From contig NZ_JAOBPO010000003.1 of NCBI RefSeq assembly GCF_025574485.1, forward strand, positions 101,867-165,866: DNA of 64,000 nucleotides. The letters run 5' to 3'. Positions 54,801 to 58,588 of the stretch are shown piece after piece. The translations under genes and the position numbers were made by a program. Each line of letters begins with the position of its first letter. Position 1 is the stretch's first letter. The notes under the pieces are model-generated. The model saw only the letters and a program-made list of their open reading frames with translations. It searched no databases and was not told where the DNA came from. The stretch is from Kordiimonas aquimaris. GTDB lineage: Bacteria; Pseudomonadota; Alphaproteobacteria; Sphingomonadales; Kordiimonadaceae.

Positions 54801-57428
54801 ATGCAGAAGACTTTTAGATTGGGTCAAAACTTGAGTTTATTACCTATGCGCATTATCAAGCCCGTGTTGTTGTTTTTGGGTTTATATCTGTCCTTTATTC
54901 TAGGCAGCAATGCAACTGCACAACAACCCGCTGCAGAGCAGCAGGTGCCGATCATTCAACAAATCAGCGTTTCGGGTAACGAGCGTGTTGAACCGGAAAC
55001 AATTGCATCTTATTTATCAGTTCGCCCTGGTGACCCTTTTGATCCCTCATTGCTTGACGCGAGCCTAAAATCTTTGTTCGCCACCGGTTTGTTTTCTGAT
55101 GTTGAGCTAACGGAGCGCGGCGGCGCGTTGATCGTCCGCGTTGTTGAAAATCCAATTATCAACCGGATTATTTTTGAAGGTAATAAGAAGCTTGATAACG
55201 AAGAACTTGCTGAAGAAGTTCGCTTACGCCCACGTCAGGTATTTACACGGGCACGCGTTCGTTCAGATGTTCAACGCATGCTTGAGCTGTACCGCCGTTC
55301 TGGCCGTTTCGCTGCCATCATCGAACCCAAAGTAGTACAACGTGAACAAAACCGCGTCGATTTGGTTTTTGAAATTCAAGAAGGCCCAAAAACCAAAGTA
55401 AGTAAAATCAACTTCATTGGTAACAAAGTATACGGCGATGGCGACCTGCGTGACGTGTTGGCAACAAAGCAAGCACGTTGGTGGAAAATTTTTACTTCTA
55501 ATGACACATTTGACCCTGACAGGCTTGCATACGATCAACAGGTTTTGCGTCAGCACTATCTTAATGAAGGTTACGCTGACTTTCGGGTAGTGTCAGCCGT
55601 ATCAGAGCTTACGCCGAACCGTGAAGATTTCTTTATTACCTTCACTGTCGAAGAAGGCGAGATTTACACCTTTGGTGAAATCAAGGTGGAAAGTGAAATA
55701 CGCGACATTAATGAAGACCTGTTTCGTGCATTCTTGTTGATGCGTGAAGGTGCAAATTATAACGCTGAAGCAATTGAAAACTCAATTGAATCACTTTCAA
55801 ATGCAGCTGGTTTACTTGGTTATGCATTTGTTGATGTGCGACCGCAAATTAACAGAGACCGTGAAAACCGGATCATGAACATTACATTCCGTATTCTTGA
55901 TGCACCGCGTGTTTATGTGGAGCGCATTAATATTAAAGGTAACGTTGTAACCCTTGACAAAGTTGTCCGCCGTGAATTCCGTTTGCAAGAGGGCGATGCT
56001 TTCAACTCTGCACTTGTTTCGCGGTCTGAAAATCGTTTGCGCCGTCTAGATTTCTTCCGTGAAGTTGAAATTGAGCAACTGCAAGGCTCGTTGCCGGACC
56101 GACTTGTGCTAGATGTAACTGTCGATGAGCAGGCAACTGGTGAATTGAACCTTGGGGCAGGCTTTTCCAGTTTGGAAAACTTTATTTTCGACTTCTCAAT
56201 TCGCCAGCGAAATTTCCAAGGTAAAGCACATGATTTACGCCTCGGCGTTCGTTTATCTGGCACACGACAAGAAATTGACCTCGGCTTTACAGAGCCGTAT
56301 TTCTTGGGTCGCCGCGTTGCAGCAGGCTTTGATATATTTGCACGTAGAATTGATTCTACAAACTTTGGTTCATTTTTTAACACCAACTCACTTGGCTTTT
56401 CCTTAAGAGCAGGTATGGCGCTTAATGAATACTGGACATTGTCTACACGCTACACACTGCGTCAGGATGATGTTTCTGTGCCAAATGGTTTGTTGAACTC
56501 CACATTCGCGTCCTTTGTTAGCAACGTTCAAGCCTCCTTGAACGGGGACCCAGCTAATGACCAGCTTGTTTTGGATCGGTTTGACCTTAACAACGACGGT
56601 GAGATTACCGCTGATGATTTTGATACTAACGCTGACGGGGACTTTAGCGATGTTGAGTTAGCGGTGGGTCTTGGACGTTCGCTTCAGGAATCTCTCGGAA
56701 AACGTTTCCAGTCAATTGTTGGATACTCTTTAAACTACAATACACTTAATAGCTTCATTCGACCAACTAGAGGTAATCGCATAACCTTTAGCCAGGACTT
56801 TGCAGGACTCGGCGGCGATGTAAGATATATTAGAAGCCAGTTAAATCTTGATAACTATTGGACACCTTGGGCAGGTTGGACCTTCCGCTTAGGTGGTGAA
56901 GCTGGATTAATTGAAGGGTTAGGACAAGGCATTCTGGTTTCTGATCGCTTCTATATTGGTGGCCCACGTATTCGTGGTTTTGATATCGCAGGGATCGGAC
57001 CACGCGACTTCTCAGGCACAACCACAGGCTCAAGAAGCGCACGTGGTGGCACCGCATTCTATATTACTCGCGGCGAGCTTTTCTTCCCGTTAGGGGATGC
57101 TGCGCTTGAATCTGGCATTAATGCATCTGTATTCGTTGACGCTGGCTCCTTGTTCCGCGGCCAAATTGATGATAGTCCCAATTGTGAATTTAGTAGAAGA
57201 GAGTTCGAGGACTTCCAAACTGCGTCAGCAGAAGATCCTTCACTCGTATTTGGTTTTAATACCAACTGTATCGCAGGTGATTCAATATCACCTCGTGTAG
57301 CCGTTGGTATTGGCTTCTCATGGCAGTCGCCATTTGGGCCATTCCGTATCGATTTAACACGTGCTCTTAAGCGTCAGCTTGGTGACCGTACACAAACGCT
57401 ACAGTTCAATGTAGGCACAACATTTTAA
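54801..57428 (+). CDS. bamA: Outer membrane protein assembly factor BamA
   Basis: BamA folds and inserts beta-barrel proteins. It has 875 residues from the ATG at 54801. A signal peptide is seen (hydrophobic segment, then ATAQQ); an ATG at 54846 would give a shorter signal. Five POTRA domains fill about 50-390, and the barrel follows, ending in an aromatic C-terminus (FNVGTTF). The barrel signature GGPRIRGFDIAGIGPRD is present. Unusual: two tandem EF-hand-like loops at 595-606 and 608-619. BamA follows rseP and precedes the OmpH gene. Confidence 0.95.
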   Translation: MQKTFRLGQNLSLLPMRIIKPVLLFLGLYLSFILGSNATAQQPAAEQQVPIIQQISVSGNERVEPETIASYLSVRPGDPFDPSLLDASLKSLFATGLFSDVELTERGGALIVRVVENPIINRIIFEGNKKLDNEELAEEVRLRPRQVFTRARVRSDVQRMLELYRRSGRFAAIIEPKVVQREQNRVDLVFEIQEGPKTKVSKINFIGNKVYGDGDLRDVLATKQARWWKIFTSNDTFDPDRLAYDQQVLRQHYLNEGYADFRVVSAVSELTPNREDFFITFTVEEGEIYTFGEIKVESEIRDINEDLFRAFLLMREGANYNAEAIENSIESLSNAAGLLGYAFVDVRPQINRDRENRIMNITFRILDAPRVYVERINIKGNVVTLDKVVRREFRLQEGDAFNSALVSRSENRLRRLDFFREVEIEQLQGSLPDRLVLDVTVDEQATGELNLGAGFSSLENFIFDFSIRQRNFQGKAHDLRLGVRLSGTRQEIDLGFTEPYFLGRRVAAGFDIFARRIDSTNFGSFFNTNSLGFSLRAGMALNEYWTLSTRYTLRQDDVSVPNGLLNSTFASFVSNVQASLNGDPANDQLVLDRFDLNNDGEITADDFDTNADGDFSDVELAVGLGRSLQESLGKRFQSIVGYSLNYNTLNSFIRPTRGNRITFSQDFAGLGGDVRYIRSQLNLDNYWTPWAGWTFRLGGEAGLIEGLGQGILVSDRFYIGGPRIRGFDIAGIGPRDFSGTTTGSRSARGGTAFYITRGELFFPLGDAALESGINASVFVDAGSLFRGQIDDSPNCEFSRREFEDFQTASAEDPSLVFGFNTNCIAGDSISPRVAVGIGFSWQSPFGPFRIDLTRALKRQLGDRTQTLQFNVGTTF

Positions 57429-57447: not shown

Positions 57448-58116
57448 ATGAACACCGTACTTAAAACGATCAAATTTGCGACAGCTGGCCTATTGGCAGC
57501 GGCAACAATATCAACTGCTTCACTTGCAGACATCCTGCTAGTTGATGACGAGCGTGTTGAGCGTGAAGCTGCTGCATACAAAGACTTTAACTTACAGACG
57601 ACGCAAATTCGCGAGTCTATTCTGGCACTACGTAATCGCCTCGCACGGGGTGGTACATTTGAGCAAGCACTTGCCGATTTTTCAAATCGTCAAAAAGCTG
57701 CATTTGATGATCTTGAAAAGCGTAAATCATTAATCGGTAACGACGCTTATCAGGCTGAATTTGCTCAAAAAGAAGCTGAGTATCAAGCCGAAGGTGCTAA
57801 CCTTCAACGTAGCTATCAAAACGAAACAGAGCAGCTACAACGCTTGGAACTCGTATTCGATCGCTTGCGTCAAGAAGCTCAAACACAAGTAGAACGCGCA
57901 CGTCAACCGGTTATACGTAATATACTCAAAGACCGTAGCGCAAAAATTATTATGCGCAAACGTTTGGTAATGGGTTCGGCAAGTGGTCTTGATGTTACAA
58001 CAGAATTTATCGAGCAGCTAGACGTTGAGCTACCAGCAGTAACGCTTGCTTTGTTGCAACAACAGCAGCAACAACCAGCAGCTGAAGGCGCAACACCTGA
58101 ACAGGGTGGCAATTAA
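57448..58116 (+). CDS. OmpH/Skp family periplasmic chaperone
   Basis: A 222-residue protein with a signal peptide (about 1-30, ending near SLA-DI) and a long charged helical region rich in Gln, Glu, Arg and Lys, as in Skp/OmpH. Skp holds unfolded outer-membrane proteins for BamA. The C-terminus is low-complexity (QQQQQQPAAEGATPEQGG). It lies 20 bases after bamA, the common position. Confidence 0.85.
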   Translation: MNTVLKTIKFATAGLLAAATISTASLADILLVDDERVEREAAAYKDFNLQTTQIRESILALRNRLARGGTFEQALADFSNRQKAAFDDLEKRKSLIGNDAYQAEFAQKEAEYQAEGANLQRSYQNETEQLQRLELVFDRLRQEAQTQVERARQPVIRNILKDRSAKIIMRKRLVMGSASGLDVTTEFIEQLDVELPAVTLALLQQQQQQPAAEGATPEQGGN

Positions 58117-58150
58117 TCAGAGCAACTGATTAAGCGAATGGGAGGCTTTA

Positions 58151-58588
58151 ATGGAACTATCCATTGCTGAAATAATGGAAATGATACCTCATAGGTATCC
58201 TTTCCTACTGGTTGATAAAGTGGTGGACATTGTTCACGGTGAAAGTGCAACCGGCATCAAGAATGTGACAATGAATGAGCCATTCTTTCCAGGTCATTTT
58301 CCTCAAAAACCAGTAATGCCAGGCGTTCTAATATTAGAAGCCATGGCTCAAACAGCTGGCGTTATAGCCATTCAGTACTTAGGCGATGATGCCAAAGGTA
58401 AAGTTGTTTACTTCATGGGTATCGACGGAGCGAAATTTCGTAGACCAGTAGTACCTGGTGATGTACTATATATGAAGCTCACGAAAACACGTGGTGGTGG
58501 GGCAGTTTGGAAGTTTGATGCTGAAGCCTACGTCGATGATGAATTAGTCGCTCAAGCAAAACTAACGGCAATGTTGGGCGCCGAATAA
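58151..58588 (+). CDS. fabZ: 3-hydroxyacyl-ACP dehydratase FabZ
   Basis: FabZ dehydrates 3-hydroxyacyl-ACP in fatty acid elongation. It has 145 residues and a hot-dog fold. The catalytic pair is His49 ([15 protein letters not shown]) and Glu63 ([11 protein letters not shown]). In most relatives fabZ lies between lpxD and lpxA; here it directly follows the OmpH gene and precedes gltA, with no lpx gene on either side. Confidence 0.95.

Follow-up and report, generated by a model that had tools for sequence, protein, structure and literature searches.

Tandem EF-hand-type loops in predicted extracellular loop 4 of BamA in Kordiimonas and its relatives: a putative calcium brace

Described calcium loops and outer-membrane barrels

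In thrombospondin type 3 (TSP3) repeats, Asp-rich calcium loops run head to tail with a period of about 13 residues, with Asp as the ninth residue of each loop and Cys between one repeat and the next. Dockerin type I has two DxNxDG loops, set in separate loop-helix repeats that are linker-separated and about 20 residues or more apart. The linear motif Dx[DN]xDG has also been found inserted into folds other than the EF-hand, is strongly biased toward periplasmic, surface or secreted proteins, and was counted in 16 structural contexts in 2011 (Rigden et al. 2011, PMC3123361). The two BamA loops discussed here have the same six-residue core as the motif of that paper, whose main text contains neither "outer membrane" nor "barrel", so that a surface loop on a barrel would add to its known contexts.

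An outer-membrane loop ordered by calcium is already described in BtuB, where the ion is reported to limit the mobility of extracellular loop L2 (PMC7360065). What we propose for BamA is a similar restraint, by calcium, on a surface loop of a barrel in the outer membrane; BtuB differs in being a TonB-dependent receptor whose calcium is tied to cobalamin affinity (PMC7360065). At the topological position of our insert, E. coli BamA has a loop 4 (L4) that is described as short and partly helical (PMC12578637) and is essential: with L4 deleted the protein is folded and non-functional (PMC3871556). It is much shorter than the corresponding loop of Kordiimonas, eL4, and the accounts of L4 given in passages of these two papers mention no calcium loops (PMC12578637, PMC3871556).

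The BamA loops are in several ways those of a canonical, calmodulin-type EF-hand. They share its 12-residue length and its pattern of D, N, D, G and D/E at 12, loop 1 has the hydrophobic residue at position 8 in all 26 aligned rows, and the insert has a predicted helix before loop 1 and another after loop 2. They differ in lying one residue apart, with a one-turn helix shared between them where a standard pair would have two complete helix-loop-helix units, and in sitting in a loop of an outer-membrane barrel; in the models they do not form the paired units, each loop with two full flanking helices, by which EF-hands are defined.

An earlier note on this DNA had judged the pair closer to TSP3 or dockerin-like loops, which we reject, as the EF-hand families of Pfam rank higher and as the spacing, position 9 and the absence of Cys disagree. 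For the segment in the window (the whole 64,000-nucleotide stretch of Kordiimonas aquimaris DNA that was analysed), EF-hand_5 gave 17.1 bits (cut-off 25.9, E 0.0036), EF-hand_6 14.4 (cut-off 25) and EF-hand_7 13.7 (cut-off 30), all below their cut-offs. At E <= 1, EF-hand_6 reached 22 of 26 members and EF-hand_7 18 of 26 (best E 6.3e-6 and 3.1e-6, respectively); Dockerin_1 reached 10 of 26, fewer and more weakly than the EF-hand families, with 14.1 bits for the window segment (cut-off 22.9). TSP3 resembles BamA in its tandem Asp-rich loops, but position 9 in the window is T in one loop and S in the other (D occurs there in 7/26 rows for loop 1 and 4/26 for loop 2), eL4 of the window has no Cys, and predicted helices surround the loops; together with the spacing and the Pfam ranking, this removes TSP3 as the closest relative. 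Dockerin, which has two loops as the insert does, was set aside on the one-residue spacing and on the weaker ranking of Dockerin_1. When the insert was searched against the sequences of solved structures, the best 60 of 96 matches at E <= 10 included EF-hand proteins, centrin and calmodulin for example, and so did the best 60 of 380 in a second search.

The insert and its predicted structure

The gene that carries the insert encodes BamA: its product matches the POTRA family (PF07244) in five stretches and then the Omp85 barrel (PF01103, E 2.3e-63), the arrangement required of a BamA. It lies in a genome of 3.8 Mb, between what we take, from their sequences, to be rseP upstream and an OmpH/Skp-like gene followed by fabZ downstream. 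The window protein is 69-81% identical to BamA at ten named loci, six of them from Kordiimonas and two more from Kordiimonadaceae or Kordiimonadales; BamA sequences of the same genus group were identical to these.

Table 1. Features of bamA and of its eL4 insert, in window positions
Feature	Positions	Strand	Residues	Basis or remark
bamA	54801..57428	+	875 aa	five POTRA domains and Omp85 barrel
predicted barrel strand 7	56433..56477	+	545-559	AF2 model
extracellular loop 4 (eL4) with insert	56478..56696	+	560-632	between AF2 strands 7 and 8
predicted helix 1 of insert	56484..56534	+	562-578	barrel AF2 model and insert-only model
predicted entry helix to loop 1	56550..56582	+	584-594	barrel and insert-only models
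EF-hand-type loop 1, DLNNDGEITADD	56583..56618	+	595-606	translation, family alignment
one-turn helix where loops join	56610..56621	+	604-607	barrel and insert-only models
EF-hand-type loop 2, DTNADGDFSDVE	56622..56657	+	608-619	translation, family alignment
predicted exit helix of loop 2	56649..56672	+	617-624	617-632 in insert-only model
predicted barrel strand 8	56697..56741	+	633-647	AF2 model

Two 12-residue loops of EF-hand type with a one-residue spacer had been read from the letters in the earlier note, and the translation puts both exactly where it had placed them (Table 1). Each has 12 residues, with ligands at positions 1, 3, 5 and 12 and Gly at 6. A tandem of this kind (D, D/N, D/N, G and D/E at positions 1, 3, 5, 6 and 12, one-residue spacing) is expected by chance 1.4e-7 times per 875 residues, given BamA's own composition.

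An AlphaFold2 model was made from the window BamA barrel aligned with the ten named relatives. It is weak overall (mean pLDDT 57.3, pTM 0.50), with pLDDT 79-86 in the ten-residue blocks that span model residues 121-180 and 66 in the next block, which holds part of the loop 2 exit helix. The modelled barrel fold resembles that of solved BamA (E. coli 8pzu_A: Z 21.0, rmsd 4.0, 302 residues aligned; best Foldseek match 8bo2_A, E 2.2e-14). Seven strands precede the insert in the model, so that it joins strands 7 and 8 and is placed in eL4 by the E. coli numbering; the surface location in the barrel half that had been thought probable for the loops is thereby supported, with both predicted within this one extracellular loop. 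The further claim that there is no room for helices is true of the space between the loops, where one residue separates them and the joining helix has four, and is contradicted outside them by the helices modelled ahead of loop 1 and behind loop 2. Folded alone (mean pLDDT 76.5), the insert took the same layout as in the barrel model: two helices, then loop 1, a single turn, loop 2 and a final helix. Foldseek returned no match to the insert-only model at E <= 10; compared with two chains only, the insert model gave Z 2.5 (rmsd 4.2, 59 residues aligned) against 2ggz_A, guanylate cyclase activating protein 3.

Distribution and selection

A barrel match was present in 27 of 29 genomes of the Kordiimonadaceae (f1), and of the 27 distinct family BamA sequences 20 have both loops, four have one and three have neither. 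The alignment with close relatives, on which the earlier note had made its reading depend, thus finds the loops to be common among them and not a private insertion. Across these 27 sequences the length of the eL4 segment ranges from 69 to 93 aa. Neither loop is present in K. laminariae (L041/L024), in its near-copy L025 or in L053. K. laminariae and its near-identical relative retain a long eL4, with no intact calcium loop and no Cys pair, so that some of the family can do without the brace. L053, which has neither calcium loop, has the only Cys pair among the 27 rows, a single case that is suggestive and no proof. In L017 and L019, of the same genus, loop 2 is longer by five residues.

Within the order, the motif was found in none of 16 sampled rows from six other families (f2, f3, f4, f6, f7 and f8); the eL4 segment there is 15-20 aa in 15 of the 16 and 48 aa in the other (L054, f3). 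In a quick tree built without the eL4 columns, the 27 family rows formed one clade (SH-aLRT 100), the forks that set the nearest motif-less families beside it had support of 82-85, and the tandem label needed three changes over 104 rows. The simplest reading is that the tandem arose once, in the ancestor of the family, and was later lost in part, the change counts themselves being unable to separate gain from loss.

Among the 26 aligned family rows the ligand columns are nearly fixed and the neighbouring columns variable: D 24, N/D 25, D 22, G 21 and D 24 in loop 1, and D 22, N/D 26, D 18, G 22 and E/D 26 in loop 2. To judge from the codon counts, the ligand codons are under purifying selection inside a fast-evolving insert, at least among close relatives. 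In seven close sequences the ratio of non-synonymous to synonymous change was 0.16 at ligand codons, 1.30 in the rest of the insert and 0.34 in the barrel outside it; the underlying pairwise changes, which reuse sequences and are not independent events, numbered 99 synonymous and 16 non-synonymous at the ligands, and 454 and 589 respectively over the remainder of the insert. This conservation does not come from residue type, since D, N, G and E elsewhere in the insert had a ratio of 1.27 in the same sequences (135 synonymous and 172 non-synonymous changes). Random sets of ten insert columns were equally conserved in 4 of 20000 draws for the seven sequences and in 0 of 20000 for all 11. With the 11 sequences, two of which have lost loops, the ratios were 0.61 for ligands, 2.5 for the insert and 0.54 for the barrel. 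With all 26 rows (26 of the 27 distinct family rows in insert alignment A2, leaving out L025, near-identical to L041), they were 0.80 for ligands, 5.53 for other loop positions, 4.32 for the rest of the insert and 0.72 for the flanking strands. Once distant rows, some of them loop-less, are included, the contrast between ligands and barrel is gone and that between ligands and insert stays.

The sampling of the wider class favoured long open frames. One search gave a BamA match in 144 genomes, of which 90 were read, and another in 183, of which 72 were read (the window's own genome, two read before, the 29 best-scoring and 40 picked mainly for long open frames); a further search with matches in 119 genomes contributed 30 loci, of which 22 were new rows. 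The BamA genes were read directly because a profile of the insert depends on its flanks and can miss distant loops: profile A2 matched 2 of 240 genomes at E <= 1e-5, namely that of the window and an f5 genome (profile positions 71-121).

A single Dx[DN]xDG in eL4 was found in 28 of 47 rows of f5, which are presumably Sphingomonadaceae (L068-L074 and the L119-L158 range), in both rows of f11 (L194, L208) and in one of three of f162 (L243), accompanied every time by a Cys pair. These are mostly not full EF-hand loops, as the acidic residue, in f5 mostly at 11 instead of 12, is at position 12 in four of the 31 motif rows, at 11 in 22 and at neither in five. The view that BamA normally has no such motif therefore holds for the 126 of 181 rows that lack it in eL4, and needs qualifying for these three families. 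In L164, L177 and L219, of other alphaproteobacterial families, Dx[DN]xDG occurs later in the BamA barrel, at residues about 273-320.

The eL4 of the 181 BamA rows is at least 25 aa long in 87 and shorter in 94. A Cys pair, a calcium motif or both occur in 82 of the 87 long loops (Cys pair with motif 31, Cys pair alone 27, motif alone 24, all of these in f1; neither in five), and the 94 shorter ones have no calcium motif and six Cys pairs. Overlapping barrel segments of the same length outside eL4 had two Cys in 346 of 5113 cases and the motif in 42 of 5113. In relatedness-controlled pairs, long eL4 and brace agree in every informative pair, and the association of length with brace is not significant (median p 0.0625, 0.25 and 0.25 at cuts of 20, 25 and 30 aa) because informative pairs are too few; for the calcium motif alone the median p was 1, 0.5 and 0.125 at the same cuts, with one opposite pair at 30.

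Possible roles of the insert

We think it likely that the insert is a calcium-braced mini-domain in eL4, in which Ca2+ acts as a structural cross-brace of an elongated loop. The two EF-hand-type loops, fused head to tail, would share the one-turn helix, and each would take up one Ca2+ from the water outside, held by the side chains of loop residues 1, 3, 5 and 12 and by the backbone of residue 7. By stapling the entry and exit helices together, the ions would keep the long eL4 in a single shape over the barrel, and this brace would replace the disulfide that probably braces long eL4 in other lineages. We infer that the loops are occupied, by one ion each, that calcium stabilises eL4 and that BamA needs it for activity. 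Inhibitory antibodies and nanobodies are reported to bind BamA surface loops, including one antibody that binds extracellular loop 4 (PMC13067283); with the folded but non-functional L4 deletion of E. coli (PMC3871556), this suggests that a fixed shape of eL4 matters.

A bolder extension, which we regard as unlikely, is that the BAM machinery of Kordiimonadaceae is calcium-dependent as a whole: external Ca2+ would fold eL4 through the tandem loops, lock it outside and set the working shape of BamA, making BAM activity conditional on the calcium of the water. Since other Alphaproteobacteria have calcium motifs in the same loop, tuning of BamA by calcium may then have arisen as an adaptation more than once.

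About as unlikely is a calcium-triggered latch, with eL4 unfolded in the low-calcium interior of the cell and folding only when it reaches the calcium-rich outside, and so either ratcheting eL4 outward during BamA assembly or tying BAM activity to external Ca2+. The predicted extracellular position of the loop and the intact ligand sets would suit it, as would the essential L4 of E. coli (PMC3871556), the inhibitory antibody that targets loop 4 (PMC13067283) and the calcium-limited loop of BtuB (PMC7360065), but the family members that have lost loops live without them. That eL4 is a decoy or recognition surface, changing fast to evade phages, predators or competitors while the calcium loops merely hold the variable display, seems to us improbable as the main explanation; the high ratio at non-ligand positions (1.30 against 0.34 in the barrel) and the range of loop lengths in the family agree with it, yet plain relaxed constraint on a loop also fits the fast change, and a display of this sort would be compatible with the calcium brace. 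Very improbable indeed is a neutral acidic insertion with an accidental EF-like pattern or functionless relic, which has in its favour the seven of 27 family sequences that lack one or both loops, and against it that, within the insert, it is precisely the ligand codons that are under purifying selection, that the motif occurs in eL4 of three other families too and that the chance expectation is minute; this expectation, with that selection, the alignment of relatives and the recurrence of the tandem, also rules out chance or a private acidic insertion.

The motif that would form the calcium brace is of a known kind, the Dx[DN]xDG or EF-hand-type loop. What appears to be new is the setting, two copies with a single residue between them in a surface loop of a barrel protein that is essential. 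Among the matches listed in searches of mostly open-licence literature, no title or abstract beginning concerned an EF-hand or calcium loop in BamA. To our knowledge it is not settled why deletion of L4 abolishes the function of E. coli BamA. A natural BamA with an apparently calcium-stapled eL4 would provide a reversible switch, in which removal of Ca2+ could reveal the assembly step that fails.

LpxC had no match at E <= 1e-10 in any of 147 genomes of the order, with the E. coli and Caulobacter controls matching, and LpxB had none in the 29 family genomes; LptD is present in 25 of those 29. The family is thus probably without classical lipid A, yet keeps the LptD transport barrel, and BamA probably works in an outer membrane of that kind. 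The absence of LpxC alone is no explanation of the insert, since families of the order with a short eL4 also lack it. In the usual gene order, lpxD lies between skp and fabZ, and lpxA directly after fabZ. At 57448-58588 of the window, which holds what we take to be the skp-like gene and fabZ, there is no lpxD-like frame from the one to the other and no lpxA right after fabZ, in agreement with the missing LpxC.

Elsewhere in the genome of the window, a 185-aa frame (G000:C20:609189-609596) has two EF-hand_5 matches, one of them the best of 13, all below the cut-off. In another genome (G478:C3:1056943-1058529), the BamA match lies within an open frame of 4678 aa, an odd length that may reflect a fusion or a chance frame.
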